Below, in pieces: positions 23,070 through 57,086 of a DNA stretch of 64,000 nucleotides. This DNA is from Nannochloropsis salina CCMP1776 (lineage: Eukaryota > Sar > Eustigmatophyceae > Eustigmatales > Monodopsidaceae): NCBI GenBank assembly GCA_004565275.1, contig SDOX01000009.1:451007-515006 (forward strand). The letters are read 5' to 3'. Within the stretch, counting starts at the first letter, position 1, and each line of letters starts with the position of its first letter. The notes under the pieces were generated by a model. The model was given only the letters and a program-made list of their open reading frames with translations, did not search any database and was not told where the DNA came from. Made by a program: the position numbers and the translations under genes.

Positions 23070-23142
23070 TTCCCACGTGAGGGCTTGAACCTCAGACCGC
23101 GGCGTTATTAGCACCGTGCTCTACCAACTGAGCTACGCGGGA
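23070..23142 (-). tRNA. trnI-AAU: tRNA-Ile (anticodon AAU)
   Basis: A 73-base cloverleaf reads on the minus strand. Acceptor TCCCGCG pairs with CGTGGGA apart from one mismatch or wobble. The D arm is GCTC-AGTTGGTA-GAGC. The anticodon stem CGGTG/CGCCG encloses loop CTAATAA with anticodon AAT. The T arm is TGAGG-TTCAAGC-CCTCA, and the discriminator is A. Internal polymerase III boxes (TAGCTCAGTTGG and GGTTCAAGCCC) are intact. There is no intron. Anticodon AAU (edited to IAU in eukaryotes) reads isoleucine codons and confirms a nuclear eukaryotic gene. CCA is not encoded. Confidence 0.95.
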
Positions 23143-23903: not shown

Positions 23904-26897
23904 ATGCATCCGCCGGCGGAATCTTCACATGCCTCGCCGTCCGCGGCAGCACCACCTCCAAGGAACACTCACCGCATCGCACTCCTCCTGCTCACCTTCC
24001 TTTCTTTCATCTGTTCAAGCACCTCTTTCTTCACTGCCTACCCGGCATCTTTCACGAGGCCGTCCCCCCGGTCGGTCACTCGGCGCCATGCCGCCCCAAT
24101 GTCCCGGGGAGCCCTTACCATGGGCCTCCTGGACGGCCTCAAGAAAGCCATGACCAGCGCGGGCGTGGCTTCCGGTGCGATCGATACCTCCATGAACGGT
24201 CCACCAGAGATGGAGAACGCCGCATTGATCAAGCAGTACGAGGAGCGGGTGGTGCGCATCAACGCCATGGAAGACGCCTTCGAAAAGCTGAGCGACGAAG
24301 AGCTCCGCGCCAAAACAACTGAGTTCCAGCGCCTCATCCGCGAGGGGAAGGAGGATGTGACGGGGCCGCTGCTTGAAGAAGCGTTTGCGGTGGTGCGAGA
24401 GGCTGCCTGGCGCGTGCTGCAGCTGCGGCATTACGACGTCCAGCTCATGGGGGGCATGGCTCTCAACGAGGGCCGGCTGGCGGAGATGGCAACAGGTGAA
24501 GGCAAAACGCTCGTGGCTACTCTGCCGGCTTACTTGAACGGGTTGACGGGAAACGGGGCCTTTCTGGTTACAGCAAACGATTACCTGGCGCGGCGCGACG
24601 CGGAGCTGATGGGCCAAGTCCACCGCTTCCTGGGCCTCTCGGTGGGGCTCATCCAGACCGGGATGACCTACCCGGAGCGCCGGGAGGCCTATGCCTGCGA
24701 CGTGACCTACGTGACGAACGTGGAGCTGGGCTTCGACTACCTGCGGGACAATCTGGCATTGACCGAGGACGAGACGGTGCTGCGGGCCCGGCCCCTGGAG
24801 AGGGCCTTCTGTCTAGTGGACGAGGCCGACTCCATCCTCATCGATGAGGCGCGTACCCCCCTCATCATCAGCAAGCAGATCAACGCCCCCCAGCCCAAGT
24901 ATGGGGCGGCCAAGAAGCTGGTGGATTTCTTGAAGCCGGGCGTGCATTACGAGGTGGACGAGAAAGCGCAGAACGTGGTCCTTACCGACCAGGGCGTGAA
25001 GGACTGCGAGAAGGTGCTGGGCAAGAGCCTCTTCGACCTCCAGGACCCCTGGATGAGCTTCGTGACCAACGGGCTTAAGGCCAAGGAGCTCCTGACTCGG
25101 GACAAGGACTACATCGTCCGCGGGCAGGACATCGCCATTGTGGACCGATTCTCGGGCCGGGTCTTGGAGGGGCGCAAGTACTCGGACGGGCTGCAGCAGA
25201 GCATCCAGATCAAGGAGGGCTTGTCGTGCTCGAGCCAGAGCCAAGTCATCGCAACAATTACGTACCAAAGTCTTTTTCGGCTCTTCTACAAGCTGGCGGG
25301 GATGACGGGCACGGCACTGACGGATTACAAAGACTTCGTCACCACGTACAATCTGCCCGTGGTCGCCATCCCTACCGCTCTGCCCAACGCGCGCAAAGAC
25401 TACCCAGACGCTATCTTCCGCTCGAAGGAGGGTAAGCTTCGCGCGCTTTTGCGTGAGACCCGGCGCGCGCACAAGACAGGGCAGCCCATTCTGATCGGCA
25501 CCACCTCGGTGGAGACCTCGGAGCTGATCGCTGACGCCCTGCAGGAGCTGAACATCTCCTGCAAGGTCTTGAACGCGCGGCCCGAGAACATCGAGAAAGA
25601 GTCCCAGATTGTCGCTCAAGCGGGGCGGTTGGGTGCGGTGACTGTGGCCACCAACATGGCGGGTCGGGGCACAGACATCCTCTTGGGCGGGAACCCGGCC
25701 CTGATGGCGAGGATCAAGCTTAAGCTCGAGCTGGCGCGCGGGGTGCTGGGGTCGCAAGCGGGGGCGGAGGCAATGGACGACTTTTTCCCCGTAGAAGTGA
25801 GCCCCGCTGGAGACCAGTTGATCCAGACAGCCGTAGCCCTGGCCAAGGAGAAGATCGGAGCGGAGGGCATGAGCCTCTTCAAGATCGAGGAGATGATTGC
25901 AGTGGCAGCGGAGAACTCGCCCGTGACGAACCCCGTTTTGTTGGCGCTTCGGGACGCCTACGACGAAGTAAAGCGTCAGTATCAAGACGTGCTGGCTGAC
26001 GAGAAGGTTCAGGTCAAGAGACTGGGGGGTCTCTACGTGCTGGGCACCGAGAGGCACGAATCCCGTCGCATAGACAACCAGCTCCGAGGTCGGGCAGGCC
26101 GACAGGGGGACTCGGGGGCGACGAGATTTTTCCTGTCCTTGGAGGACGACGTGTTTCGGATCTTTGGCGGCGACAAAATCCAAAGCGTCATGGACACCTT
26201 CCGGGTCGGCGATGACCTGCCCATCGAGAGCCCGACGGTTAGTGAGGCCCTGGACAAGGTGCAACAGCAAGTGGAGTCTTACTACTTTGATATCCGTCAG
26301 AAGCTCCTGGCCTTCGACAATGTAATCAGCAAGCAGCGCCAGGAGTTGTACGAAATTCGCGCGGCCATCGTTGCCCATGACGCGGCGCAACTGCACACGA
26401 TGATGCGGGACTTCGCCAGGCAGACAACGGAGGACATCGTGGACGCCAATTTCGAGACGGAGAAACGGGGCAAGATTGTGGAGAAGGTCCGTCAATTTTT
26501 CCCCACGTTGGGACCCGTCGATGATAAAGAGATTATGAAGATGACGCGGCAGCAGACGTCCGCTTGCATGCATGAGGCGGTAGATAAAACATTGGAGAGA
26601 AAGAAAGCGGACTTGGCCACGCACAAGGCTGAACTTTACGCTGAAACGGTTCGATACTTGACGTTGCTTCAGATTGACAATTTGTGGGCACAGCAGCTGG
26701 AGGCTCTGGAGCAACTCAAGGAGATATCGGTCTTGCAGCGCTTTAAGGGCGCGGACCCTATGCTTGAATATGAGAAGCGCACAAGCGCTTTTTTCCGGGA
26801 TTTGATCGGCAATGTCCGTCGCAATACGGTATATTCACTTTTTCAATACCAGCCGAAGGGGACGGCATCAGGTGGTGGCGAGACGGTGGCGAAGTAA
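23904..26897 (+). CDS. secA: Nucleus-encoded plastid SecA translocase ATPase (possibly SecA2 type)
   Basis: ATP-driven motor pushing proteins through a SecY channel; here predicted to act at plastid membranes. One exon, 997 residues. The first 70 residues contain a signal-peptide-like segment (RIALLLLTFLSFICSSTS) followed by FF and a basic transit-like region. The mature part starts near GLLDGLKKAM. Motor motifs: Walker A EMATGEGKTLVATLPA near residue 195, VTNVELGFDYLRDN, DEAD-type LVDEADSILIDEARTPLIIS, the TYQSLFRLFYKLAGMTGTA block, VATNMAGRGTDILLGGNPAL, and ESRRIDNQLRGRAGRQGDSG with the arginine finger. The helical scaffold and wing follow. The C-terminal zinc-binding cysteine cluster of bacterial SecA is absent, as usual in plastids. 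Many heterokont plastomes encode secA themselves, so this nuclear copy may be a second, SecA2-like system. Confidence 0.92.
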   Translation: MHPPAESSHASPSAAAPPPRNTHRIALLLLTFLSFICSSTSFFTAYPASFTRPSPRSVTRRHAAPMSRGALTMGLLDGLKKAMTSAGVASGAIDTSMNGPPEMENAALIKQYEERVVRINAMEDAFEKLSDEELRAKTTEFQRLIREGKEDVTGPLLEEAFAVVREAAWRVLQLRHYDVQLMGGMALNEGRLAEMATGEGKTLVATLPAYLNGLTGNGAFLVTANDYLARRDAELMGQVHRFLGLSVGLIQTGMTYPERREAYACDVTYVTNVELGFDYLRDNLALTEDETVLRARPLERAFCLVDEADSILIDEARTPLIISKQINAPQPKYGAAKKLVDFLKPGVHYEVDEKAQNVVLTDQGVKDCEKVLGKSLFDLQDPWMSFVTNGLKAKELLTRDKDYIVRGQDIAIVDRFSGRVLEGRKYSDGLQQSIQIKEGLSCSSQSQVIATITYQSLFRLFYKLAGMTGTALTDYKDFVTTYNLPVVAIPTALPNARKDYPDAIFRSKEGKLRALLRETRRAHKTGQPILIGTTSVETSELIADALQELNISCKVLNARPENIEKESQIVAQAGRLGAVTVATNMAGRGTDILLGGNPALMARIKLKLELARGVLGSQAGAEAMDDFFPVEVSPAGDQLIQTAVALAKEKIGAEGMSLFKIEEMIAVAAENSPVTNPVLLALRDAYDEVKRQYQDVLADEKVQVKRLGGLYVLGTERHESRRIDNQLRGRAGRQGDSGATRFFLSLEDDVFRIFGGDKIQSVMDTFRVGDDLPIESPTVSEALDKVQQQVESYYFDIRQKLLAFDNVISKQRQELYEIRAAIVAHDAAQLHTMMRDFARQTTEDIVDANFETEKRGKIVEKVRQFFPTLGPVDDKEIMKMTRQQTSACMHEAVDKTLERKKADLATHKAELYAETVRYLTLLQIDNLWAQQLEALEQLKEISVLQRFKGADPMLEYEKRTSAFFRDLIGNVRRNTVYSLFQYQPKGTASGGGETVAK

Positions 26898-27658
26898 AAT
26901 TTACGAGACTTCTCTTGTGACCTTCGGCTTTATTCGTTTAAGAGTATAAAAGGAAAAAAACACAAAACTCATTCAAACCACTTCCAATTAGAACGGTGTG
27001 CATGGTAGAAAGCTTGTAAGTTATAGTTGATTTATGAGCAATTCATAATGAAGAGCATTCGCCAATATGGGAATACGGTAGGGCAAGGCCGGGCGGCGTC
27101 AAATCAGTGGCCCGGCATTTTGAGGTCGGCCCCCGTCGCACTGCTAGAAGTTGGCACGGATACTAGACCATAAAGCCCGACTTCGCTTTTTAATTGGAAA
27201 TACCACGCAGGTGGATGGAACGCAAGGCTCTCATTAAGCACGTCCGCGTGGTCTAGGGGAATCTCTAATGTTGTATGCCCCCTAAGCGGAGGTAATGTGG
27301 CAATGGGGAGATCGACAGTTTCCAAGTCCGTCCGCTGGAACGCATACGTTCCATAATGCCCGCCTCCCTTTCAGGACGGCAAATTGTTGTGAAGACCCGC
27401 AAAGGCATTGATGCTGGTGTGTGACGTGTTACTCCGTCGTGCCTTCTCGACTCCACTCGCCTAGTGGACTTTCTTTTCTACGGCATTGCCACAATATTAT
27501 TATCTCATCGTATCAGCATTCGTTGAAATGTATGCAGCCTTACTTCGACCGAACTCCACAAATAACAAAATATCAACAGGCATTATGGCATGCTTAACTT
27601 ACTCTGGACAAAGAAAGAGGCTTTTGACTAGAAAATTAAGATAGTAAACCGACAGGAC
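26898..27658. other. Intergenic region
   Basis: About 760 AT-rich bases between SecA and the giant channel-like gene. Minus-strand frames at 27104-27456 have no recognisable family. Presumed SecA 3' UTR and promoter of the downstream gene. Confidence 0.35.
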
Positions 27659-30600
27659 ATGGAGGAGAAGGTCGAAGATTCGTCCACAGGGGATAGGGAT
27701 AAGGGCAGCGTTGCAGATCTGGAGTTCGGCAGCAACTCTGTCGATAGCATGGGCAGCGACTGTAGTAATTGTGTGAGCACACCTCGAAGGCAGCTGATGC
27801 ATCTAAGCATGGGAAAGAATTGCGAAAATTCAAGTCGGGGGCGTGGCGATGGAAACGCCTTTAAAAATGAGAGCGAGCTCCCCTCACTGTTGACGGCCGC
27901 TGGTCGTGGCTTGAGTAACAACCAGACCGGTGGTAATCGAGGGAATAGTAAATGCTATGGGAACGAGACAGTGAACAGTAACGGGTCCGTTCACGCCGGC
28001 GCCAGCAGTAACAGCAATGGAAAAGCTGAGTCTACAGACAACGGCAGCAAGGACAGTGGGGATGGGACGCTCTCTGTGCATCCCAAGCCTAAGTTGCAGG
28101 GCATATTGAAAAAAGATGGGCTAACTGGCGGGAATCTTGGAAGGTCAGGTATGGGAAGGCGAAGCTCATCGTTCTACGCGCCGAAAGGCTTAAGTCGAAG
28201 CAGCAACTCCCTTAGCACGCGCTTCCATTTGGTCCCTCCTACAAAGACGGTCCGCTTTCGACTCGAGAGCGATAACGAGAAGCGGCCATGGTTTGCTCTA
28301 TTGGAAATCATGGACCCGGGCTCGCTTTTCATGGTGCGCTGGAAGAGCCTGTGTATCGTCTTCCTGTCGATCTCCTTCTTTCGATTGCCAGTCATTATGG
28401 CGTTTGGGGCCCATGGCCTCCTCATCGACTTTATATGTGACGTCTATTTTTTAATAGACAACGTTTTCGCCCTGCACACGGCCTATTTGAAAAAGGGAGA
28501 GCTCATAATCGACCGGCGGCGCATTGCACGGCGATACTTTAGCTGGAAGACCTTCATGAGGGGAGAGCGTTGGTCGTACCTCGTCTTTCTCATGGAATTC
28601 GTCCCCTTCTATTCGGCCATCATCATTATGGCCTTCTACACCCTGCCGGACTGGTTTCTGACCCTGTGTGCCGCATCGCGAGCCCGCCGAATGTACGATC
28701 TCCTTTCCTACTTCCATGCGCTCGAGTTGCGGCTTGACAGCGACCTGCGCGTGCTGGCCGTCACCAAGTACGGACTTGTCCTCTTTGGGAGCGCGCACTG
28801 GTTCGGCTGCGTCTGGTGGGCCGTGGCACGATTTTCGGGATTTACGGAGAGCTGCTGGGTGTCGCAATTTCTGCGACTGACAGCGAGGCCCGTCTCGGAG
28901 GAGAGCTTTCGGAGCACGTCCTTCAATTATTTTCTCTCCTTGTATTGGGGCTTTACCGTCCTCACAGGCACTATGGTGCCAGGATATGCGCCAGACAGCA
29001 GCCAAGAGACGATTCTGTCGATCGTGTCGATCTTCAGCCAAGTCCTCATTTTCTCCTTCCTGTTCGGTATCCTGCTCCATTACATTGTCAAAAAGGACGC
29101 CAATCAGGAGAAGTACAAATCCTTGATAGACAAGGTGGAGCGCTATGCCAAGATGCACGAGCTTCCACGGCGTTTAGAATCCTCCATAAAGCTTTGCTTC
29201 ACATTTCAGCACCAAAATCGCATTGGCCAAGACGAGGAGATCCTCTCTGCTATTCCCATGACCATGAAAACCAAGATCCTTGCCTACCGCTACCAAATGG
29301 TGGCCGCCAACGAGATCTTTGAAGGCTGCCAGGAGCATTTTGTCACTTCTGTTTTGGCCGTCCTTCGCCCCAAGATCCTCATTCCTGGCGTGACAATATT
29401 CAACAGGGACGACATGACCCGGGAGGCCGTGTTCCTGGAGGAGGGTGAGGTGGAGGTGCACGCCGAGGACGACGCGGGCGCTTTTCGAATGATCAAACCC
29501 TCTGAGGATGTCTTCCCTGTCGTGGGCGCCATTGCATTTTTTCTCGGTATTCCACAACCCTACACGCATAAAGCTAGCATGAAGTCGCACGTTAAACTCC
29601 TGACCTTGTCCAAAGACGACTACGAGGATATCAGAGACCGCTACCCCGAGTCTCGAGACCAGCTCATCGGCAATATCACGGCGGCCGTTGGATTGACGCG
29701 GGACGGCGACATGGATGACATTAGCAAGGCGGTGGTTCTGGAAATGGAGAGCCCTATGGGCATGCCGACGGATGTGGACGGAGATAGCAATGCTGCTCGA
29801 CTGCAAGAGCAGCGGCAACGACGGCAGCAGCAGCAGCAGGATCTGTCACAGTCTCAGGCAGCAACCGCTGCAGATTTAGGCGTGCGAACGGGGGAAACCG
29901 AAAAGGTCGCACTTCGACGTAAGGTGGCGTTAGGGCTGCGGAAGAAAATGGATGACGAGCTCGCCACCATGTTTAACGCCGTCGAGGAGGGCGACCTGGA
30001 ATCCGTCAAGCTGCTGCTTGACAAGGGCTTTAAGGTAAATACGACCGACTACGACCTACGTTCGAGCTTGCATTTTGCTGCCACGAGGGGCGAAGACAAA
30101 ATCGTAGAACTGCTCACTCAACGGGGGGCTGACGTGCACTCGCGAGATCGGTGGGGCCGGAATGCGCTTCAGGATGCTATCGACAATGGATGCACAGTCG
30201 TGGCAAGCATGCTGGCGGCCCAGGGCGCTGAACTGAGACTGCGAAATTCAGCAGGTCGGCTGTGTGCAGCGGCGTTTACTGATAATTTGTTCGAGCTCCA
30301 GCGTTTGATCGAGAATGGCGTTGATTGCAACGTCGTTGACTACGATGGACGCACAGCACTGCACCTAGGGGCTTGCGAGGGCAATAACAAGGTTGTGGAA
30401 TATCTACTGCTGCCTATAAATAAATGCAATCCAGGAGTTTTGGATCGATGGGGAATTTCTCCACTTTTTGACGCCATCAAGCACGGAAATTTGTCCGTAG
30501 CACGCGTTCTCTACGAGAATGGCGCCCGCCTGTCCAAGGGCAAGGCGGCAACATTTTTGTGTACGGCCGCAGCCAACGGGGACTCTTCATTGCTGCAAAT

Positions 30601-33600
30601 GCTGTTTGAGTGCGGCGTAGAAACTAATATCGGTGATTATGATTATAGATATCCAATCCACTTGGCAGCAGCCGAGGGTGAGGTTATATCTGTTGAGTTT
30701 CTTGCATATGCACACGCTGAACTTAGCGTCAAAGATCGGTGGGGTCGCACTCCATTGGACGACGCCATAACCGAAGGGCATCTTTGCTGTGCGAAGATGC
30801 TGATGAGCTTTGGTGCTGAGTATACAATTTCCATTGATGCGGCGACTCAAGCGCGTATTGACGCCGTGGACCTAAAGGAAGTGCGGGCGATGGTCAGGGC
30901 AGAGCGGACAGTGCAAAATCAGCATAAAAGCGTCGCGAAACAATTGAGAGAGATGGTCAAGTGGATGGCCGCAGAAACCGAAACTTGGCAGAAGAGTGTT
31001 GAGGAGCGTCTCAAACATTTGAAGCGGACAACAGATCGCATGATTTCGGGGGACGAAATCGACGACTTTCACCTGGACACGCAGGATTTCCTCGCGCAAT
31101 CTGACTTATCCATTCTAGTTTCAGAGCGCCCAGAACGTGTCACAATTGAGTCAAACATGAGCTATCCGGATTCATACATGCTGAGCCGCTTTATAAGCGA
31201 GGCGTCATCAAGTTCTGACAGTGCAAGGGAATTTACTAGCACGAGTTATGCTGCAAACGGGGCTATATCTAGTGAAGCGACAAGCAGCGATCGGAAACAA
31301 AACCATGGCCTAAAGTCAATGCAGCATTTTTTTCTGAAGTGGAGCCTTATTCACTCTGCGATCAAAAACTGGAAGGAAAATCTGATTGTAACGGCTCGGC
31401 GCGACATGCACGAGCCGCCTGGTATAAATCAGACTGCCCTAGGTATTGCCCTCCGCTCATTAGGAGTTTCTGTCACCGATCACGATCTCGATCGAGCATT
31501 CGAAGCGTGCAAAAGTGGTACAGAGGAGGTAGATACTGCTCAAAGGGTGAGCGGTCTTGGAGAGGTTGAGGAAATGACATTTTGGGAAGGAAATGCTATG
31601 ATATCTGCAGACAAGGCGGCAACCGCTCCTGAATCGGTGTCGTGCGAAGACGTAGTAATGGCCATGCCTGTCTGGTCGCTCATCATGCATGCCCCAGCCG
31701 CGGGTGGTAGCGATTTATCTCGGCTTCAGGAGGCAGTGCACGTGATTTGCGAAGGCTATCGTTTGCTGACTCGGCATGGAAACGGTAAGCTAGGCCGTGC
31801 TGCTTGGATGATTCAAAAGAGAGAAACTGACTTGGGCGAGTTTAGCTCGGTTATCGATCAAGTATTTCTTGATCAGGATGTCATCGACAAGGAATCGTTT
31901 TTCTTGACCGTTGCACGTTGGGCTGCGCTTCGTGACGAGGATAATGGCGTCTCAGATGACTACGGGTCAGGTGCGTATGAAAAAAGTACAGTTTTAGGCT
32001 TGAGCCCCGATGATGACGCCTCATTTCAAAGTGAGGGAGGAGATTTGGACAAGATGCCTTCCGGCGTTGCGAACTCGGGTACTCTACGGGAGAGCCGCAT
32101 GCCGTGTGACCTGGGGCATAGCCTGAGCAACTCAAGTTGGCCTGAACTGGCGGCAAACCGTCTATACTTAGAAAGGATTGAGAGCGATTCCAGCCTTCAA
32201 GGGCAGATGAGCTCCCTTTCTGCCAATCAAATCCCACATTTATACGTAAAAAAACGCAATTTGTGGACTCGTCTGTGCACTGCCTGGAAATTATTTTGTA
32301 TAAAGCGGAAGTTACGTGCTTCTTTAAAAGCCGGCGAGGGTCAGTCCAGGACACAGCTGGCAATGCCAGACTTCGCACGGCATTTCGCCCGACTAGATCT
32401 AGAGCGGTGCGACTGGCTTGATCGTAACCGTACCGAGCTTCTGCTTGCTCGAGGCTTCGATGCCGACCTGAGTCGAGGAGAGTGGGGCTTACTTGCCGAG
32501 TCCTTGAAAGACAATGTAGTAGGCAAGGTCAGTCTAGCAGCTGTGGAGCGTTTTTGGATGGAGTTGAATGGTGTCTCAGCCAAATTGCAAGTGGCGTCAG
32601 CGCTGGATGCCTCACGACGGGGCATTAACTCCTTAAATCCATCTCAACGCGTCCTCAAGGATAATGCTGCCTTTGATGCCGAGGGCAGTAAGCGCATTCC
32701 TGGCGCGATGATTTTGGTAGAGCGCCGATCCTGGAGCGAAGCCCTTTTGTTCGACAGGAAGGGGTGGTTCATCTCGATGTGGGTCGTGGTTATGATAGTG
32801 AATGCGCTGTATTATTTTTTGAGCGTACCTTTCATTATCGCCTTCCTGCGAGACGAGATTCTTGGTGAATATGAAAGCTGTCTTTGGGTTGCATATGCTT
32901 TTGATTGCCTCCTACTCTGTGACGTCCTGGTCAAGCTCAATACAAGTTTTATAGATACTTCATGCAGTGTTTTAGTCGTCAATCGGCGCCGAATTCGTCA
33001 TCGCTACTTGACGGGAGGCTTCCTCAGAGATCTTGTCGGGATGCTACCTGTCGATATCCTTGTGCGATTTTTGGGTGGCTCAGGCACGCTTGTGGCGTTC
33101 CTGCGTCTGCCTAAACTCATTTTTTGCTACCGCCTCGTCAATTTTTTCAGACGCCGCTCCCTCAATTCTTCCTCTCGCTTGGCTGTAGATCTTCAAGCCC
33201 TGCTTTTCTCAGCGCTCGGCATGATTCACATTCTTACATGTGTTTGGTTCTTTATGACCGAGGGTGATCCGGGCAATTATCAGGCCTTGAGCGGTTATGA
33301 AGATTACGGAAACTACACAAATGATCCTTCCGGTGGTGGACCCTTCCGGCTCGAATATTACATTTTTTGCTACATGTTGATCACTACGATCATCTCCACT
33401 CAAGGTATTTACGACGTTGTGATGGGGCAGGCGCGCGAAATATGGTTCACCATGTTTATACTTCTGCTGAATCTCTCCGCCTGGGCCTATCTAATGGGGA
33501 CTATTTCCGGCCTTTGCGTGACAGCGGACGAGTCGATCGCACAGTCTCACGAGCTAATGACTGCTGTTTCCCGCTTTATTCAACACAATCCAATGCCTCC

Positions 33601-36100
33601 CGGTGTGTCGGAGGAGCTCAAGGGTTATTTTAACATAAATGCCCAGCAAAAAACGCAGTTGTCGCTGACAGAGCAGACACAAATATATCATAGCCTACCA
33701 CTGTCTCTACAAGTTGAGGCTGCACGGCATATTTCCCGGGACTCTTTATTGTGTGTCGAAATTTTCACGAAGACCAGTGAGTATTTCCTGGACTCTGTTT
33801 CTACGCTTTTAGACATGGAACTCTTTGGGGTGGGCGACTATGTGTACAAGGCGGACGACATCTGCCGCTCGCTGTACATCGTTGCTTCAGGTAGCGTGGA
33901 AGTAGGAAAGATGAATTCAGAGACTAACGAGTTCGAAGTCGACGAGATCGCTGGGGTCGGTTATGCGCTCGGACAGCTAGAGTTTCTCTTCGATGTGCGA
34001 TACATGACCTCAGCAAGAGTGTCGGGCGCGGACGATGTGCGGGTTTTTAGGTTGGGTAAGGAGGACTTCACACGTGTCATCAAATTGTATCCCATGGACG
34101 AGGACATTTTGTACGAAAATCTCTCACGCTTGGCGGACGATAAGATGGAAACCAGTTCGAGGGCACCAAGCACAGCCCAGAGCATGTCCACGCACTCGCT
34201 AGACTTCACAGTCGTAGGCGGTGATGACCTCATGGAAAAGGCTATGGATAGCATTGACAAAGCTAAAAAGCGGAGCAAGGAGCAGCGTATCCGCTCTTTT
34301 TGCAATGCGGCCGCCGAAGGGAACATGGACATCCTGCAGCGCCTCCTCCGGAGTGGTATCGACATAAATGGACGAGATTGTAACGAGCGTACTGCACTAA
34401 TGCTGGCGACCTCTGCAGGCAATTTCGAGCTTGTCAAATGGTTAGTCTCTTTGGGAGCAGAAGTAAATTTGCGAGACAAGTTTGGGGGCTCCGCGTTACT
34501 GGATGCCATGCGTCATAGTACACCCTTGCATATGGAGATTATGGGCTTTTTAAGCAAACAAGGGGCCGTCTTAGAACTGGACGATGCAGCGGGAGAGCTT
34601 TGTCAGGCAGCAGCAGACGGAGAGAGAGAAAAACTGGCTCGGATGCTTGAATTGAATACATCACCAGATGTAGCTGATTACGATAAACGTACTCCCCTAC
34701 ATCTGGCTGCTTCAGAAGGTCGCCTAGATTGTGTGAAACTCCTGCTGGAGTATTGGGCAGACGTAAACCCTATTGACCGAATGGGTGGGACTCCCTTGTC
34801 GGATGCGGTACGGCATGGGCACCTTCACATTCAGACACTTCTACGCCAGCATGGTGGTAAGCTCAATATGGACCCTTTCGAGCTTGGGACGTGCGCGTGT
34901 GAGGCAGGGTCCTCGGGCGACCTGGACAGCATCCGTGTGCTGGTAGAGAATGGTGCCGACATCAACACAGGAGACTACGACGGTCGCACGGCGTTGCACA
35001 TGGCTACTTGTTATAATCGGTTGAGCGTCATCGAATATTTGGTCTCGTTGCCGTCGATCAACCTCAATCCACTGGATCGTCTCGTAAATACGCCTCTTGA
35101 CGACGCGGAAAGGGAGGGCCAAGGTGCTATTGTTAAAATTCTTCAAGCCCGTGGGGGCGTTCCAGGCACTCATCCATCGTTGAAAGACCAAGTTGCTCAA
35201 CAAAAACAGAAAAAAGCTGAAGCCGAGGCCGCCAAAAAAATGCGTCGTGAGGCGGCCGCGCGCTTATTTGAGGAGTGGAGCCTCGTGCAAGAGGACCTGT
35301 CGCGAGTCTACAGCTTTATGAGTGAGTACTTGCCATCACTCTGTAAAAACATCAACATTTTAAGCATGACCCTGCGGAGTCGACGAACACAAAGTACGAT
35401 CGATCGTTCCCCCCGGCCCGATCTTGCGGAAACCCGGCTCTATTTTTATAAGTCTTTCCTAGCGTTCTTAGAGCGGCGTTACAAAGTTAATCTGGAGATG
35501 TCCTTGACGCTCATCGAAGAACTAGAGGAAATAACTTCTTTTGAAGACAAGGCGCGAATCGCAGGGTACATCGTGGAACGCTTTCTTGACGCGAAATCTT
35601 CAGATCGTGTGCACTTTCATCCCACACAGGTCGGGCTGGTGAAGGAGCGCCTACTCGCTGCATTTCCGGGGAAAGTATTTCCTGTCGATTTACTCGAGCC
35701 TTTTCGAGCCAGTGTTGTTGAAAAGATGGAGGAATTACTGCCAGACTATTTTAAATCAGATTTTTATTACCGTGCTTGTCGGCAGCCTAATGGCTTCCTG
35801 TGGAGAGTGATGAAACTCTCTCGTTTGCTGCATGGGCTGTGTAATCAGATACTTGTCGATGTCATTAATCCTTTTCTAAAGCTATGCAATCGAGATGCAC
35901 TTGCATGCGTGCCACACTATTCAAAAAGCAATAGGCAGGCTTTTCGAGAGGAATTTGTAAAGCTAAAAATTAACATTACGTCGCTGCAACCAGTCTTGCA
36001 CATTGTCGGGTACAAGTCCAAGCATGACGCAATGCAAGAATGTATCAAGGAGCGCCGAGAGAAGCGCACAGGAACCGGAGGTACCGGACATAGGAAGTAG
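27659..36100 (+). CDS. Giant tandem channel-like protein: two 6-TM/CNBD/ankyrin units plus C-terminal RGS-like segment
   Basis: A single uninterrupted frame of 2813 residues. Residues 1-200 are Ser/Gly/Asn-rich. Unit 1: six hydrophobic segments at about 230-480, pore-loop region LTGTMVPGYAPDS near 435, a C-linker, a cyclic-nucleotide-binding-like fold at about 555-690, then ankyrin repeats at about 768-1060 (for example NTTDYDLRSSLHFAATRGED). A 600-residue linker follows. Unit 2: transmembrane segments at about 1708-1960, pore region TTIISTQGIYDVV near 1909-1921, a clearer cyclic-nucleotide-binding domain at about 2036-2158, ankyrins at about 2211-2501. Residues about 2590-2705 resemble an RGS domain (SFLAFLERRY at one end, EELLPDYFKSDFYYR at the other). 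The layout of each unit is that of plant AKT/KAT or animal EAG/HCN channels, but neither pore has the K+ filter T-x-G-Y-G. Transported ion, if any, is unknown; two units could form a pseudo-dimer. Confidence 0.85.
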   Translation: MEEKVEDSSTGDRDKGSVADLEFGSNSVDSMGSDCSNCVSTPRRQLMHLSMGKNCENSSRGRGDGNAFKNESELPSLLTAAGRGLSNNQTGGNRGNSKCYGNETVNSNGSVHAGASSNSNGKAESTDNGSKDSGDGTLSVHPKPKLQGILKKDGLTGGNLGRSGMGRRSSSFYAPKGLSRSSNSLSTRFHLVPPTKTVRFRLESDNEKRPWFALLEIMDPGSLFMVRWKSLCIVFLSISFFRLPVIMAFGAHGLLIDFICDVYFLIDNVFALHTAYLKKGELIIDRRRIARRYFSWKTFMRGERWSYLVFLMEFVPFYSAIIIMAFYTLPDWFLTLCAASRARRMYDLLSYFHALELRLDSDLRVLAVTKYGLVLFGSAHWFGCVWWAVARFSGFTESCWVSQFLRLTARPVSEESFRSTSFNYFLSLYWGFTVLTGTMVPGYAPDSSQETILSIVSIFSQVLIFSFLFGILLHYIVKKDANQEKYKSLIDKVERYAKMHELPRRLESSIKLCFTFQHQNRIGQDEEILSAIPMTMKTKILAYRYQMVAANEIFEGCQEHFVTSVLAVLRPKILIPGVTIFNRDDMTREAVFLEEGEVEVHAEDDAGAFRMIKPSEDVFPVVGAIAFFLGIPQPYTHKASMKSHVKLLTLSKDDYEDIRDRYPESRDQLIGNITAAVGLTRDGDMDDISKAVVLEMESPMGMPTDVDGDSNAARLQEQRQRRQQQQQDLSQSQAATAADLGVRTGETEKVALRRKVALGLRKKMDDELATMFNAVEEGDLESVKLLLDKGFKVNTTDYDLRSSLHFAATRGEDKIVELLTQRGADVHSRDRWGRNALQDAIDNGCTVVASMLAAQGAELRLRNSAGRLCAAAFTDNLFELQRLIENGVDCNVVDYDGRTALHLGACEGNNKVVEYLLLPINKCNPGVLDRWGISPLFDAIKHGNLSVARVLYENGARLSKGKAATFLCTAAANGDSSLLQMLFECGVETNIGDYDYRYPIHLAAAEGEVISVEFLAYAHAELSVKDRWGRTPLDDAITEGHLCCAKMLMSFGAEYTISIDAATQARIDAVDLKEVRAMVRAERTVQNQHKSVAKQLREMVKWMAAETETWQKSVEERLKHLKRTTDRMISGDEIDDFHLDTQDFLAQSDLSILVSERPERVTIESNMSYPDSYMLSRFISEASSSSDSAREFTSTSYAANGAISSEATSSDRKQNHGLKSMQHFFLKWSLIHSAIKNWKENLIVTARRDMHEPPGINQTALGIALRSLGVSVTDHDLDRAFEACKSGTEEVDTAQRVSGLGEVEEMTFWEGNAMISADKAATAPESVSCEDVVMAMPVWSLIMHAPAAGGSDLSRLQEAVHVICEGYRLLTRHGNGKLGRAAWMIQKRETDLGEFSSVIDQVFLDQDVIDKESFFLTVARWAALRDEDNGVSDDYGSGAYEKSTVLGLSPDDDASFQSEGGDLDKMPSGVANSGTLRESRMPCDLGHSLSNSSWPELAANRLYLERIESDSSLQGQMSSLSANQIPHLYVKKRNLWTRLCTAWKLFCIKRKLRASLKAGEGQSRTQLAMPDFARHFARLDLERCDWLDRNRTELLLARGFDADLSRGEWGLLAESLKDNVVGKVSLAAVERFWMELNGVSAKLQVASALDASRRGINSLNPSQRVLKDNAAFDAEGSKRIPGAMILVERRSWSEALLFDRKGWFISMWVVVMIVNALYYFLSVPFIIAFLRDEILGEYESCLWVAYAFDCLLLCDVLVKLNTSFIDTSCSVLVVNRRRIRHRYLTGGFLRDLVGMLPVDILVRFLGGSGTLVAFLRLPKLIFCYRLVNFFRRRSLNSSSRLAVDLQALLFSALGMIHILTCVWFFMTEGDPGNYQALSGYEDYGNYTNDPSGGGPFRLEYYIFCYMLITTIISTQGIYDVVMGQAREIWFTMFILLLNLSAWAYLMGTISGLCVTADESIAQSHELMTAVSRFIQHNPMPPGVSEELKGYFNINAQQKTQLSLTEQTQIYHSLPLSLQVEAARHISRDSLLCVEIFTKTSEYFLDSVSTLLDMELFGVGDYVYKADDICRSLYIVASGSVEVGKMNSETNEFEVDEIAGVGYALGQLEFLFDVRYMTSARVSGADDVRVFRLGKEDFTRVIKLYPMDEDILYENLSRLADDKMETSSRAPSTAQSMSTHSLDFTVVGGDDLMEKAMDSIDKAKKRSKEQRIRSFCNAAAEGNMDILQRLLRSGIDINGRDCNERTALMLATSAGNFELVKWLVSLGAEVNLRDKFGGSALLDAMRHSTPLHMEIMGFLSKQGAVLELDDAAGELCQAAADGEREKLARMLELNTSPDVADYDKRTPLHLAASEGRLDCVKLLLEYWADVNPIDRMGGTPLSDAVRHGHLHIQTLLRQHGGKLNMDPFELGTCACEAGSSGDLDSIRVLVENGADINTGDYDGRTALHMATCYNRLSVIEYLVSLPSINLNPLDRLVNTPLDDAEREGQGAIVKILQARGGVPGTHPSLKDQVAQQKQKKAEAEAAKKMRREAAARLFEEWSLVQEDLSRVYSFMSEYLPSLCKNINILSMTLRSRRTQSTIDRSPRPDLAETRLYFYKSFLAFLERRYKVNLEMSLTLIEELEEITSFEDKARIAGYIVERFLDAKSSDRVHFHPTQVGLVKERLLAAFPGKVFPVDLLEPFRASVVEKMEELLPDYFKSDFYYRACRQPNGFLWRVMKLSRLLHGLCNQILVDVINPFLKLCNRDALACVPHYSKSNRQAFREEFVKLKINITSLQPVLHIVGYKSKHDAMQECIKERREKRTGTGGTGHRK

Positions 36101-36978: not shown

Positions 36979-39900
36979 CTAGCTTTGGGTCGAGGCTGTC
37001 ACATCGAAAGGCTGCGTACAGAAGCTGACCGCATATTGTGTGGCCTTGATGGAGTATGTCTGTGGAGCTAGGTCAGCAGGCACCTCAAAGGGAATCGCAA
37101 GGGAACCCTTGCCCTTGGGGACGATTTGGCCGATTGGGATGTCATCACTTGAGCCCAAACCGCATTTCTTTGTCAGCGTCAGGCCTACGGGCGCCGTCGA
37201 TGAGAATCCAGAAATCATCACTTTGCCCGTCTCTCCCTGACTAAACGTCGGGAGGGCAAGACGCTCGCCGGTTTCCGTCGAGACTAGGACAGTGGGCACC
37301 AAATTGCCCGAGAGCGCTCCGACGACAGAGCTCATCACCGTCGATGAAGCCTGGGGCAGGGCCATTCCTCTCACCTTGTGGGTAGTCACGAAGTCAGCGT
37401 TGCTCTCGTCTATCAATACATCGACAGGCAGCGTCTCACCAAGGACCGCCACGAAGTTCGCGGCCTTGAATTGTTTGACCCAATCCGAGGCGAGAGCGGC
37501 GCACTCGTCGTCGTGTGTCGTGAAAGAGAGGTCGTAGACCTCTGTGAGCTCTGAGTCCTTGAAGAAAGCCTCTGCATTGGACAAAGCGAACTCCTGCAGC
37601 TCGGGATGTCTGATACTATTCTTCTTCTGCACGTTCACTCGCGCACAGTCGTCGCCGAGGGCCTTGGAAATGGCCGATTGCAGGTCAGACGGCAGTGCGC
37701 ATTGTTCCGGCGCTGATTCCGCGCTGCTAGAGCATCCAAGCTTCAGAATCGCTGTTGTCACTTGAGTATCGATCAGAGGCATGTCCGCGCTGCTTTCATC
37801 GAACAGATTGCTTGCCTGTTTGATCCACTTGGGGAGCGCCTGGGCGGTTCCATCCGTGCCCAGCACCCGAACATCTTCGAGGGAGCAGGCAGACAGCTCT
37901 TCTTCGCTGAGCTCGCAGGCCCCCGCGTTCTCGCCGACGATCTGTTTGTTCATATTGCCCTTGAAGCCGCAGGGGTTGCAGGCAATGGGGCCGTTGACCG
38001 CCGCGTAGTGTGTCTGAGGTGTGTTCGTTCCCACAGAGCCTAGGGGCGAGTCCTTCACCGCCTGCACGAAGGCATTCGGGGTGCCCGCCGAGAAGGTGTT
38101 CTCGCCTTCTAAGACCGTGAAACTCGAGGCAGGAATGGCGGATGCTTGCGACTCCGCGGAGGCGATCTCGAAATCCTCCAACTCCGCTGCCAGCGGCTGC
38201 ACCAGATAGTTCTCCTGCACTTCCTCGTCCATATCCTCCTCCACGTCGTCGTCCTCGACGGCGTTCTCATCGGACTCTTGATCCTGCCGCCGGCCTTTTC
38301 TGATACCGTCTGGGAAAGCATGAAGGGCGCATGGGAGTGAGAACTAATTTATTTCTGGCAATATTGACAATTGCATACAGGAAGAGTCATCTCATACTTA
38401 CAAGAATAGAAATCGTCGTCGTCCATTACGTGGTTTTCAACAGGAATGACGTCGTCATGATCTTTGCCATTAAGATCGATGACATCTTCAACCTCATCCT
38501 CTTCGAAAGTTCTGTCCTCATCGTCTTCTTTCTCTGCCTCATCCTCGTCCTCGAGGTCGTCCTCGTCATCGAGGTCATCCTCCGGGCCTTCATCCTCCTT
38601 CAAGTCATCTGTGAGCTCCTCCTCCCCGGCATTGATGTCAGCATCGTCAAAATCAAGGTCATCTTCCTCAACGTCATCGTCCTCGTACTCTTCGTCCTCG
38701 AAATCATCCTCTGAAGCGCCTTCCACATCATCGTCCTCGACGTCATCGTCCGCCGCACCGTGCTCGACCTCCACATCGTCGTCCTCGACGTCATCGTCCG
38801 CCGCACCGTGCTCCACCTCCACATCGTCGTCCTCGACGTCATCGTCCGCCGCACCGTGCTCGACCTCCACATCATCGTCCTCGACGTCATCGTCCGCCGC
38901 ACCGTGCTCGACCTCCACATCATCGTCCTCGACGTCATCGTCCGCCGTACCGTGCTCGACCTCCACATCGTCGTCCTCGACGTCATCGTCCGCCGCACCG
39001 TGCTCGACCTCCACATCATCGTCCTCGACGTCATCGTCCGCAGCACCGTGCTCGACCTCCACATCGTCGTCCTCGACGTCATCGTCCGCCGCACCGTGCT
39101 CCACCTCCATATCATCGTCCTCGACGTCATCGTCCGCCGCACCGTGCTTGACCTCCACATCGTCGTCCTCGACGTCATCGTCCGCCGCACCGTGCTCGAC
39201 CTCCACATCGTCGTCCTCGACGTCATCGTCCGCCGCACCGTGATCGACCTCTACATCATCGTCCTCGACGTCATCGTCGGCCGCACCGTGCTCGACCTCT
39301 ACGTCATCGTCCTCGGCGTCATCGTCCGCCGCACCGTGCTCGACCTCCATATCGTCGTCCTCGACGTCATCGTCGTGAGTAGCAAGCTCAGCTTCTGAGT
39401 TGGTTTGCATCATATCATCGTCTTCGAAGTCGTCATCTTGACCGGAACCACTCTTGACGTCATCGTCAAATGCTCCGTCGAATCCAAGGTCCTGATTGTC
39501 GAACAGGTCATCGTCACGCTCCACCCCGAATGTCTCAAGGTCATCGTCACGGGCATCTTGCTCATACAAATCATCATCCTCCTGAGTTTCCTCGTCGTCG
39601 AGGCTAAGGTCCTGGTTGTCGAACAGGTCATCGTCACGCTCCACCCCGAATTCCTCGAGGTCATCGTCACGGGCATCTTGCTCATACAAATCATCATCCT
39701 CCTGAGTTTCCTCGTCGTCGAGGCCGAGGTCCTGGTTGTCGAACAGGTCATCGTCACGCTCCACCCCGAATTCCTCGAGGTCGTCATCCGTCTCGCCAAC
39801 CACGCCGAGGTCCTGCTTGGGACTTCTCACAAGTGGGGTCTCCAAGTCGTCATCGCGCAAATCCCCCGCTTCTTCGTCGTCGTCCCAGCCCCCGAGCCCA

Positions 39901-42588
39901 GCGCCTTGATCAAGCATGTCGTCGTCTGTGGGGGCCACTTCCGAGTCATCGTTCCCACCGGCACCGAGATCATCGTCCCATATGTCGTCGTCCGTGGCAC
40001 CGCTCGCCCAGTCGGTCTCCTCGTCGTCGTCATCGAATCCGGTATCCGAGTTGGCCTCCTTGTCATCATCATCTGCGCCCCAGCCGCCGCCCCCCTCAAG
40101 CGCCTCCCGATCGTCGTCCCCCCACCATTCTTCCCAGTCATCATCCCCTGCTTTCCCGGGTGTGTATCCCCCTCCGCCATAGTTCGTTTCCCAGTCGTCA
40201 TCGTACCATTCCCAATCATCGTCCCAACCCCATTCCTCCTCATCGTCATCTCGACCGAGCTTCTTCTTCATTCTGTTCATCATTTTTTTGACAAAACCGT
40301 CATTCTCTTCGTCATCGTCGCCCAGGAAAGCGCCGAAACCAAAGTCGAAGCTCTTGAATAGGTCCTTATCAGCCTTGTCTCGGGGCACGATTGCAGTGGC
40401 GTTGCCCTTGCCTACCAATTTGAAATTCTTGAAACTGGCGGGGACGGCCTGGCCGTTCACGAAGTACTGAGAGACTGGGGGGGCGATGTAGGCCACGCCC
40501 GTGTTCACGGCCGAGGGGGAGCCCCGAACCACGATAGCACCTGCTCCCACGAAGGCGTCGAAGCCGAGGAAGAATGCGAAAAGGACCCCGACGTTCTTAG
40601 CCATGGGGGAGCCGATGTCGATTAGGATCCCCGCGCCCAGGAAATAGTTCCCGCCGATCAGGACCACGGAGGCGACCCCATAGTTGTCCACGTTCGCGGC
40701 CCCGACCACGACCAGCACCCCCGCGCCGACAGCCATGGTCCCCCCGATTCCATACACGCCCGCCACTCCCACGTTTCGAGACTGGGAAAAGCCAACGATC
40801 ACTGCCGAACCTGCCCCCACCCAATTAAGGACACCTGCTCCTGCGTAGAAGTCCACCCCGGCCGAGAGCTGTTGAGTCACTCCTGTCATTGTCAGAGTGC
40901 CCCCTCCAAGGGAGACCATCACGCCCGTCCCGCATTCGATGGCAACCCCCAAGCTAGCGGAGAAAGCGCCGCCAGAAATGACGATCACCCCCCCGCCCAC
41001 AAAGAGCTCGAGGCCCGTGCCGAAATGCGAGAAAACGGCCAAGTTTGCCACCCAGGCACAACCCGAGAAGATGCCCACGCCCCCGCCGAGAAAGACTAAA
41101 ATCCCGGCACCACTGGCATTAATGGCCAGGAAATTGATCGTGAAAGTACAGCCCGAGCTAACGAGTACACCGCCCAGAACTGCGACCAAAAAGCCGACCC
41201 CAAAGCCATTGATGAAGAGCTGCGAGTTCGTAAATGTCACACCGGACAGAACAGCGACGCCCGCAACCACGAGCAGATCAGCCCCCACAACGTAGATCTC
41301 ACGGAAAAGCACACCTGGCTGCAAGACCCAGAAATGTGAAAGCGTGATGGTAACGATCCCACCGGTGACAAAAACCTGACCACCGAACACGCGAACGGCG
41401 CGGGAGACATCGGGGGCGATCAGAATAGCAGGCATGCCCACAGGCGGGGCGTTCGTGAAAATGACACCGAATGCCGAAAAGCGGCCGCCAAGTTCAACCA
41501 AAGCCGTCCCACCGCGCAAGACGGGGATGGTAGCAATGAGTTCACCGCCACCTCGGTATGTGCGCACAAATTGGAGGTCGAGGTTGCCGCCCGCCACAAT
41601 GTGGAAGATGCGCTTCGAGTCGGCGCCATCGATCGTGGGCAGGGAGATAGGATTACCGATAATGACCTTGCGAGTGGAAATAGTAATGTCATCATCGCTG
41701 TCCGGCAAGGCCACATTATATATCTTGCCCGGGAGCAGGCTTATGATTGCGCAACGGGAGGGGTCTTCCGCCATCTGCCTCAACTCCATACCCGACTGAG
41801 GAACGCAGGCGCTACCAGAAATCAGACTCGTATCCTTTAACATGGTGCTGAAGAAATCTTCACTAGTTGCGCCAGCTTCTTCTCCAAACACGCCACCGAT
41901 CAGATCCGAAGACTTCTCAGCCACCCCGTCGAGCACTTTGTATCCGGGTAAAGAGCCCCCGGGGCCGTCGGGGAGGCTCTCCGTACTGACCTCTTCTGGC
42001 TCGACGGGCTCTGCAACAATAGGAGCTTTGTCCTGTTCGTAGAGATGAAGGAGTGTCGTCATGAGCAAGGGTCTTGTCATGGAAGTAGCATCGCCTTACG
42101 TACCGCGGGGCTCGGGGGTGGTACGACGGTTTCAATGCTGCTCGCCTCCTCGACTACTCCGTCGGCGGGCTGTAAATGTATTTTAAAAAATAGAAATAGA
42201 GGAAGAGATGTCACTGTGTACATTCACTTATGAAGGGTAGTTATAGAGAAATCACACGTAACCTCCAACGATTTTCAAGAGCATTCAATGCCTCCGTATC
42301 TTACCAAAGGAGACTGCGAGGCATGCTTTTCCTCAGGTTGGAAGGCTATCACTATCCCCGCAATAAGACCGATTGTAGCTAGTGCAGCGAAAAGAAGAAG
42401 CAGAGACTTTTTCCTGGGAGTGATATAGTGCGAAGCATTGACAAAGTGAAGTGAATTTCGTGATCCTTATGTTCTCCTGTCCCACTCGTGCCCTGCCTTG
42501 ACCGCATTTCTTCTTAGTATTTTTTTCAAACTTACCATCCTCGTCTCTGCCACCACGGCTCGATGGGCCGCGTGCCCTCGACAGCCAT
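36979..42588 (-). CDS. Signal-anchored protein with Pmp-like beta-helix and acidic tandem repeats, five exons
   Basis: Exons 42588-42536, 42413-42305, 42169-42104, 42032-38402 and 38309-36979 have GT-AG borders and consistent phases and give 1729 residues. Exons 1-2 create a short basic N-terminus (MAVEGTRPIEPWWQRRGW) and one membrane helix (KKSLLLLFAALATIGLIAGI), so it is probably a type II anchored or secreted protein. Residues about 165-600 are a Gly/Val-rich series of roughly 20-residue turns (GGGVGIFSGCAWVANLAVF, GGVLVSSGCTFTINFLAI), the pattern of right-handed beta-helices and of chlamydial Pmp repeats (GGA-I and FxxN). Residues about 635-1285 are extremely Asp/Glu-rich, built on DDD triplets with two tandem repeat blocks. 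The C-terminal 440 residues have several cysteines (CNPCGFKG, CELSEEELSAC) suggesting an extracellular domain. Function unknown; cell-surface adhesion or Ca2+ binding is only inference. Confidence 0.75.
38728..39380 (-). repeat. 48-base coding tandem repeat, 13 copies (EVEHGAADDDVEDDDV)
   Basis: Thirteen nearly identical 48-base units in exon 4 of the beta-helix gene encode a 16-residue acidic unit with one His. Variants are mostly single residues (VDHG, VKHG, HGTA, DDDM). Because 48 is divisible by three, several other frames stay open here, including Ser-rich frames on the plus strand; these are by-products. Confidence 0.95.
39480..39800 (-). repeat. 120-base coding tandem repeat, nearly three copies
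   Basis: A second repeat block in the same exon encodes a 40-residue unit including ERDDDLFDNQDL, LDDEETQEDDDLYEQDA and RDDDLEEFGV. Copies are almost identical at DNA level, so the block expanded recently. Confidence 0.9.
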
Positions 42589-55943: not shown

Positions 55944-57086
55944 ATGGCGCCAAATCGTCGTGGCGGGCCCTTAACTCGCAGCAGCAGTGGGAATACTCCG
56001 ACAAAAAGGACTAAAGCAACGCCCAAAGCGTCTGAGACATCCTCAGCTGTTCATGACAATGATTTGTCGGTCATTTCCAAGAAAGAGATTGAAGACCGTG
56101 GAGCGGGCACGGACGAAGACACAGACACTTATGTTGACCTGCCGTTCCTGCGCGGAGAGAAGCGTGTTTTTTTTACTGCTGTCATTTTCCTAACGCGTTT
56201 AAATGTCCCTCGTTGGGCAGAGGCCGACCATCACCCCGCTTATCTAATGCGGTCGATGATGCATTTCCCCTTCTTAGGGCTCTGTGTAGGAATTTGGGCG
56301 GCTGTCTGGCTCGAGGCCGCGGCGGTGCTCTGGACACCTTTTGTCGCAGCAGCGGCTTCGACATTAGCTGGTGTATGGATAACGGGAGCCTTTCATGAAG
56401 ACGGACTCGCAGATTCTCTGGATGCCTTTGGGGGAGGGTGGGGGCGCTTGCAAATCTTGCGCATTATGACAGACACTCGCGTGGGAACGTATGCATTGGT
56501 GGGCATGATTCTCGTCATGGGGATGAAACTAAAGAGCTTGGAGGTTTTGCAATCCTTGTCGCAGTCGGACATAACGACAAGCACTTTTTTGCCCTCCTTA
56601 TCCCTTTCTCCCGCCAGCGTGGCCCTGCTAGTGGCCCATACAGTGTCTCGATGGACTGTCCTTCCTCTCATATACTCCTGCCACTACATTCAAGATGAGC
56701 AAAGTGCCAAGCGAGGGCTTTACAATTGGTTTGCGGACTCTCAGAGGCTCCTGACTCTCCCTCGTCTCTGCTTGGGCACACTGGTCACGATCCTTGTTCC
56801 CGTGTTGCTCCTCCCTGTTGAGCAAGCCATGAGTGTCTTCCTGGTCGTGGTTCTGGTCACTCTTGGGGCGTCGTATTACGGAAATTTGATCATTGGGGGG
56901 GTCATTGGCGATTATTTAGGCGCAACGATTCAGGTCTGCGAGCTGTGCGTATATCTGCTCTTGAGCGCTGATCTCAAGCAGGCGCAGACAAACCCCTTCC
57001 CTCTCGTCATGCTGGCAGGTACGGCCGTTTTACCTATTTTGACATCTCGGCCTTTGATTGACTTTGGCTTTCGCGCCGAGTGTTAG
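55944..57086 (+). CDS. cobS: CobS: adenosylcobinamide-GDP ribazoletransferase (cobalamin synthase)
   Basis: Integral membrane enzyme joining adenosylcobinamide-GDP to alpha-ribazole (phosphate), the last joining step of cobalamin nucleotide-loop assembly. One exon, 380 residues. The first 70 are hydrophilic and absent from bacterial CobS (about 250 residues). Then come RVFFTAVIFLTRLNVPRW, the diagnostic acidic block WITGAFHEDGLADSLDAFGG with RLQILRIMTDTRVGTYA (metal-binding His/Glu/Asp residues), and five or so membrane helices with GNLIIGGVIGDYLGATIQ and ELCVYLLLSADL. The tail-to-tail neighbour is CobT, which makes the alpha-ribazole phosphate that CobS consumes. With no complete corrin pathway visible, a role in salvaging or remodelling external corrinoids is inferred. 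Which membrane it sits in is unknown. Confidence 0.93.
   Translation: MAPNRRGGPLTRSSSGNTPTKRTKATPKASETSSAVHDNDLSVISKKEIEDRGAGTDEDTDTYVDLPFLRGEKRVFFTAVIFLTRLNVPRWAEADHHPAYLMRSMMHFPFLGLCVGIWAAVWLEAAAVLWTPFVAAAASTLAGVWITGAFHEDGLADSLDAFGGGWGRLQILRIMTDTRVGTYALVGMILVMGMKLKSLEVLQSLSQSDITTSTFLPSLSLSPASVALLVAHTVSRWTVLPLIYSCHYIQDEQSAKRGLYNWFADSQRLLTLPRLCLGTLVTILVPVLLLPVEQAMSVFLVVVLVTLGASYYGNLIIGGVIGDYLGATIQVCELCVYLLLSADLKQAQTNPFPLVMLAGTAVLPILTSRPLIDFGFRAEC

Follow-up and report, generated by a model that had tools for sequence, protein, structure and literature searches.

Does the long open frame at this locus encode one protein built from two complete channel units and, if so, what kind of channel could it be? 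The window (the whole 64,000-nt stretch of Nannochloropsis salina DNA that was analysed) carries on its forward strand a frame that is open from position 27632, with an ATG at 27659 and a stop ending at 36100. The 8.4-kb frame without stop or intron claimed in the initial annotation is therefore real: positions 27659-36100 (+) are open and encode 2813 residues, about 310 kDa by residue count. Each of the other five frames holds 88-142 stops over the same positions, and with stops at such a density, 2813 consecutive open codons would arise by chance with a probability of ~10^-53. The regions of the gene are as follows.

27659..36100, + strand: whole gene, tandem 6TM-CNBD-ankyrin protein of 2813 aa; single intron-free open frame with an N. 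oceanica orthologue
27659..28270, + strand: N-terminal tail, residues 1-204; 48% identity to N. oceanica
28331..29098, + strand: half 1 S1-S6, residues 225-480; PDB and Pfam matches, S2 FLID and S4 SRARRM by eye
28925..29014, + strand: half 1 pore loop, residues 423-452; WGFTVLTGTMVPGYAPD, without TxGYG, 25/30 identical in N. oceanica
29099..29698, + strand: half 1 C-linker and CNBD, residues 481-680; PQPYT as in SKOR, without FGE and binding Arg
29699..29953, + strand: half 1 CNBD-ankyrin bridge, residues 681-765 (85 aa); Gln-rich, 35% identity to N. oceanica
29954..30868, + strand: half 1 ankyrin block, residues 766-1070; SKOR/GORK-like triplets
30869..32728, + strand: inter-unit linker, residues 1071-1690; segments 25-74% identical to N. 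oceanica
32759..33523, + strand: half 2 S1-S6, residues 1701-1955; S4 K1819 and R1825 occupy two of the four SKOR arginine positions
33350..33439, + strand: half 2 pore loop, residues 1898-1927; TIISTQGIYD, without TxGYG, 20/30 identical in N. oceanica
33524..34138, + strand: half 2 C-linker and CNBD, residues 1956-2160; Glu of FGE replaced by Q2106, SKOR Q482 by Y2115
34139..34273, + strand: half 2 CNBD-ankyrin bridge, residues 2161-2205 (45 aa); 84% identity to N. oceanica
34274..35158, + strand: half 2 ankyrin block, residues 2206-2500; Pfam match, confident part of the half-2 model
35450..35773, + strand: C-terminal RGS-like stretch, residues 2598-2705; PF00615 at 13.4 bits, below the 23.9 cut-off

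The fusion of the two halves is no assembly accident, because Nannochloropsis oceanica has a collinear 2904-residue orthologue (P0002) that shares 73% identity and spans the linker. Both proteins open with the same four residues, MEEK. The initial annotation had pointed to other eustigmatophytes as the place to look for the same tandem, and in N. oceanica it is present. At the sequence level, both units are conserved between the two species at similar strength: identity was 79% (half 1) and 81% (half 2) in S1-S6, 86% and 91% in the C-linker plus CNBD, and 86% in each of the ankyrin blocks. Given this similar conservation, neither half is decaying as a whole.

Other features of the window lie on either side of the gene. 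A complete SecA (997 aa; 23904-26894, + strand) is encoded ~0.8 kb upstream; since the SecA of such algae is usually plastid-encoded, this nuclear copy may be a second SecA. Cobalamin-5-phosphate synthase, CobS (55944-57083, + strand; 139 bits), represents a gene of B12 remodelling or synthesis in an algal genome. Beyond the channel gene there is a 1243-aa open frame on the reverse strand (38349-42080) with no Pfam match at E up to 0.001, and at 38-40 kb of the window the GC skew takes strongly negative values. The only tRNA found within the window was a tRNA-Ile with anticodon AAT (23070-23142, - strand).

The claim of two complete channel/CNBD/ankyrin units per polypeptide was upheld by comparisons with solved structures: both halves matched CNBD channels from S1 to the CNBD and then continued into ankyrins, so that the predicted chain is one with two complete 6TM-C-linker-CNBD-ankyrin units. 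For half 1 the best PDB match was CNGA3 (E 3.8e-28; residues 17-468 of a 500-residue query, S1 to CNBD), with a weaker match to SKOR (E 2.6e-15). For half 2 it was SKOR (E 4.8e-25; residues 17-470 of a 520-residue query, S1 to CNBD), although its lead over the second match, CNGA4 (E 1.1e-24), was small. Compared directly, the two cores shared 21% identity (E 7e-19). Eight core-to-channel comparisons, each controlled with 40 shuffles, gave real scores of 35-129 bits, and no shuffle scored above 1.9 bits.

Profile searches of the halves gave part of what had been foreseen. PF00027 was present in both halves, PF00520 in half 1 near its cut-off and Ank_2 in both, but PF00520 was not found in half 2 in either the protein scan or the genome scan. 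Specifically, PF00520 scored 20.7 bits for half 1 in the protein scan (below the cut-off of 25) and 25.1 bits in the genome scan (just above), while PF00027 scored 24.8 bits (below the cut-off of 27.5) and 29.6 bits (above). In half 2, PF00027 was above its cut-off in both scans (35.8 and 41.2 bits). Despite the weak Pfam results, half 2 is by sequence clearly channel-derived, given its sequence-to-structure matches and the shuffle control. A structure prediction of half 2 with the tail (residues 1690-2813; alignment of 3 sequences) had a mean pLDDT of 46.3 and was confident in the ankyrin block only; in a Foldseek search with this low-confidence model, GORK and SKOR chains took ranks 1-15, with TM-scores of 0.16-0.17 to the query.

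The whole protein contains six Ank_2 stretches in Pfam, three per half, and the two ankyrin blocks share 36% identity over 287 residues. We read each block as three triplets, every triplet having one repeat with DYD.R, one of the DRWG type and one that is degenerate, which would amount to about nine ankyrin repeats per half. GORK is described as having two ankyrin triplets (PMC12742848), and SKOR six ankyrin repeats, of which the third and sixth are without a hairpin (PMC10313817). In the search with block 1, SKOR and GORK were the only natural proteins with a single stretch at E<1e-20 (best 60 of 111 rows); ankyrin-1 and NompC reached higher totals than SKOR (up to 189 vs 140 bits) with several registers summed, again among the best 60 of 111. 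The best single stretches were SKOR and GORK in block 1 and AKT1 in block 2, and these three were also the solved channels that shared the 6TM-CNBD-ankyrin order in the PDB search. The NCBIfam matches lay far below the cut-offs; they were to ankyrin repeats within models for other proteins and are uninformative on function.

A tree of 13 rows, with two species and one metagenomic protein for the two clades of interest, placed the first and second repeats in separate clades, in agreement with the comparison scores. Support was 100/100 for the first halves and 100/99 for the second halves together with the metagenomic protein P0005, which was flagged as a long branch. Whether the halves are sisters is not resolved in this tree, with six of ten inner branches open, and they therefore need not share one SKOR-like parent. 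P0005 (1715 aa) scored 128.5 bits to half 2 and 35.4 bits to half 1. Like half 2, it has a CNBD, ankyrins and no recognisable filter motif; unlike the window protein, it shows one unit, and its 8.2-kb contig may or may not carry a first unit upstream. Given the position of P0005 beside the second halves, units of this second type probably existed before the two Nannochloropsis-like species separated. We note that the protein searches for tandem relatives rely on exact shared words, and the relatives described here are those among the matches listed. The absence of further tandem relatives proves nothing, because one search missed P0005, a true relative.

With regard to the pore, alignment showed that the TxGYG K+ filter is absent from both halves in both the window protein and N. 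oceanica. The filter position reads LTGTMVPGYAPD in half 1 (N. oceanica counterpart, LTGTMIQGYAPD) and IISTQGIYD in half 2 (LLSTQAIYD in N. oceanica; loop TIISTQGIYD vs TLLSTQAIYD). SKOR has a GYG filter, and its ATVGYGD aligned to a stretch of half 2 without glycine-tyrosine-glycine. A TIGE-type filter is likewise absent (GTMVPGYAP in half 1, STQGIYD in half 2). The membrane segments around the loops are strongly kept, with 25-29 of 28-31 residues of S5 and S6 identical in N. oceanica across both halves, and the half-1 block SLYWGFTVLTGTM is the same in both species. In half 2, the pore loop (20/30) is less conserved than S5 (27/29) and S6 (25/29), which fits a loop without importance as well as a loop with a changed role. 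For this pore, a non-selective cation pathway is likelier than one for K+.

The N. oceanica orthologue is labelled 'potassium channel skor-like'. We rejected this label on the filter residues; the public label 'potassium channel' has no backing from the filter sequence. In a published survey, departures from TVGY/FG were rare (PMC7576140). A single-unit channel of the same genome (L004; contig C57, 292-2616), with a CNBD match beside it, has the pore TTFSISPYNPP, also without GYG, and the absence of GYG may for that reason be a trend of the lineage. The L004 pore may also mean that the K+ filter was lost more than once among the CNBD channels of this lineage.

FGE and an arginine are the usual ligand-binding residues of a CNBD. 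Both were absent from both CNBDs in our alignment, and by this measure neither CNBD is one with standard ligand-contacting residues. In SKOR, Q482 is set beside cAMP, and the current shows no obvious cNMP effect (PMC10313817); the corresponding place in half 1, read by eye, is Q633 within the same PQPYT. Neither K+ selectivity nor cyclic-nucleotide gating is expected of the tandem protein. Cyclic-nucleotide gating was rejected on the cassette residues. Two cyclase-type loci were found in the genome scan and cyclic nucleotides may be made in the alga, but the tandem protein would not be an obvious receptor for them.

As for voltage, half 1 has R341, R343 and R344 in S4 and FLID in S2 (read by eye). 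The S4 arginines named for SKOR are R185, R191, R194 and R197 (PMC10313817); in our SKOR alignment they correspond to A1813, K1819, F1822 and R1825 of half 2, which has an additional R1816. At the positions of SKOR F125, D128 and D164, half 2 has L1752, D1755 and D1791. Half 2 might contain a weak voltage sensor. The earlier wording 'voltage- or ligand-gated' went further than the data allow: the K+ filter is absent in both halves, as are the ligand-binding residues in both CNBDs, and the initial annotation had remarked on neither.

The linker consists of blocks with 66-74% identity to N. oceanica among patches of 25-57%. Two of its conserved stretches looked EF-hand-like by eye only, and the EF-hand-like linker is an impression that is unproven. 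The linker piece 1216-1600 matched no Pfam family at E up to 1, residues 1051-1123 gave two weak sub-threshold Pfam matches (13-15 bits), and a strict EF-loop pattern had no match in the window protein, P0002 or P0005 and one in P0053. P0053 is a CNBD channel from a eukaryote; it has an EF-hand-like loop ahead of S1 (pattern match at residue 327) and lacks a GYG filter. A profile comparison of the linker with the N-terminus of P0005 aligned 22 columns at a probability of 0.2%.

The RGS-like tail is similarly unproven. PF00615 scored its 13.4 bits for the half-2 piece and was not listed when the whole protein was scanned; the N. oceanica orthologue had no RGS match, and the genome scan, with E allowed up to 10, gave two RGS matches, neither of them this tail. 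A model of the tail (residues 2500-2813; 2 aligned sequences) had a mean pLDDT of 43.2 with no confident part, and in Foldseek this poor model gave a best match at E 0.19, with RGS16 at rank 39 (E 2.4). Elsewhere in the genome, two RGS loci exceed the cut-off, and a G-alpha gene is present (383 bits). Against the RGS domain of P0044, the tail scored 5.0 bits in the window protein and -0.6 bits in the orthologue, and a profile comparison aligned 34 columns at a probability of 15.8%. P0044 is a metagenomic protein of 2554 aa that combines four 6TM and two CNBD stretches with an RGS domain at its C-terminus (63.1 bits). Like the window protein it is a multi-repeat CNBD channel, and its C-terminal RGS is a possible parallel; it differs in its four 6TM stretches, its G[YF]G filters, the lack of an ankyrin match and its RGS score (63.1 vs 13.4 bits). 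P0044 thus appears as a four-repeat channel fused to a G-protein regulator, a fusion unseen among the matches listed from open-licence PMC papers.

Taken as a whole, the explanation that we prefer, and to which we give an even chance of being right, is a natural concatemer in which two diverged CNBD channel subunits, each with ankyrins, are joined in one chain. Dimeric assembly is the natural inference from two units per chain: two chains would assemble head to tail into a 1-2-1-2 pseudo-tetramer with C2 symmetry and one pore. In SKOR and GORK, the change from C4 to C2 goes with pairing of neighbouring ankyrin domains (PMC10313817, PMC12742848, PMC12318183). This pairing keeps GORK autoinhibited, and ankyrin truncation frees the channel (PMC12742848). 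The CNBD-ankyrin bridge of SKOR/GORK-type channels is treated in PMC12318183, and neighbouring SKOR subunits are reported to differ in this linker (PMC10313817); in our protein the two bridges differ in sequence itself (85 variable vs 45 conserved residues). We infer a C2 dimer gated by ankyrin release because two unlike ankyrin units and bridges could pair in cis. The ankyrin pair would lie within one chain, so that the gene itself would fix the pairing; the channel would be gated when a partner, phosphorylation or the linker released the pair, and the CNBDs would act as structural rings rather than cyclic-nucleotide receptors. The assembly, conduction and gating proposed for the tandem protein are putative, and the symmetry argument is by analogy. 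Several points count against this explanation: half 1 is nearer CNGA3 than SKOR, the SKOR lead in half 2 is small, the half-2 pore loop is less conserved than its flanking S5 and S6, ankyrin-1 and NompC exceed SKOR in total ankyrin score, the half-2 and tail models are of low confidence, and the tree does not resolve the halves as sisters. In its boldest form, which we consider rather unlikely, eustigmatophytes would have fixed GORK's switchable inhibitory ankyrin pairing in the gene. The result would be a channel whose C2 symmetry is covalent, whose pore is not one for K+ and which does not respond to cyclic nucleotides; its gate would be the ankyrin pair within the chain, and a degenerate EF-hand linker and RGS-like tail might connect it to Ca2+ and G-protein signals.

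Other readings of the locus have to be weighed against the concatemer. It is scarcely credible that two genes were read as one, with an internal start, stop or splicing giving two proteins; the long patchy linker (25-74% identity by segment) is the sole point in favour, against the ~10^-53 chance of the open frame and a collinear 2904-aa orthologue with linker blocks kept at 66-74% identity. The membrane part could instead be non-conducting, leaving a membrane-bound voltage or protein sensor with an ankyrin scaffold. This would suit the loss of TxGYG in both halves, a half-2 loop less conserved than its own S5 and S6, and a metagenomic second-half relative (P0005) likewise without a recognisable filter; yet the 25-29 of 28-31 identical residues in S5/S6 and the unchanged SLYWGFTVLTGTM suggest a kept pore. 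Animal CNG channels, too, conduct without a GYG filter. Their filter is TIGE (PMC7576140). We regard a non-conducting protein as unlikely, though deserving of serious weight.

That the protein is an ordinary SKOR-like K+ channel, merely duplicated, as the orthologue label says, is very improbable. SKOR is the best PDB match of the half 2 core, and the best single ankyrin stretches are SKOR/GORK in block 1 and AKT1 in block 2, but a TVGYG-like filter is missing from either half in either species, and such departures are rare, with tandem channels keeping TVGYG or close variants (PMC7576140). The chain might also work only in a heteromer with another CNBD subunit. One such subunit could be L004, which in this genome encodes a single channel unit, has a CNBD match beside it and also lacks GYG; modulatory partners have a precedent in the beta subunits of animal CNG channels. 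A two-unit chain, however, already fills half a tetramer, and we consider this reading quite improbable.

Compared with known systems, the claim of a new architecture stands in part. Tandem CNBD channels had already been described: a 2020 survey described two-repeat forms from oomycetes and dinoflagellates and, as far as its available part goes, found none in diatoms, brown algae or labyrinthulids (PMC7576140). The same available part makes no mention of ankyrins, eustigmatophytes or Nannochloropsis. Ankyrins in each half, on the other hand, were not found described; among the matches listed from open-licence PMC papers, there was no described channel with ankyrins in both halves, or with both halves lacking a K+ filter. 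The oomycete and dinoflagellate channels likewise have two 6TM-CNBD repeats per chain (established for the window protein at the DNA level), with low inter-repeat identity and first and second repeats in their own clades; they carry TVGYG or close filter variants, and the window protein differs in host, in the ankyrins of both halves and in having no TVGYG-like filter (PMC7576140). CNGK, a four-repeat, K+-selective channel of animals and choanoflagellates, also has several 6TM-CNBD repeats per chain, whereas our protein has two, no K+ filter and added ankyrins (PMC7576140).

Each half follows the order of SKOR, GORK and AKT1 (6TM, C-linker, CNBD-like ring, ankyrin block), with triplet-type ankyrins as in SKOR and GORK and, in half 1, the PQPYT of SKOR. 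GORK and AKT1, like SKOR, carry a GYG filter. All three have one unit per chain with that filter, while the window protein has two units and no GYG; SKOR and GORK have six ankyrin repeats and, in our reading, the window protein about nine per half. Three features are new within the open-licence PMC matches listed: an ochrophyte host, an ankyrin block in each half, and two halves that have both lost the K+ filter. With this locus, the range of tandem CNBD channels comes to include photosynthetic stramenopiles, here in a form with ankyrins in each half. Ankyrin pairing is the proposed switch of a plant guard-cell K+ channel, and if the symmetry idea is true, this protein would be a natural concatemer for testing such pairing at defined stoichiometry.
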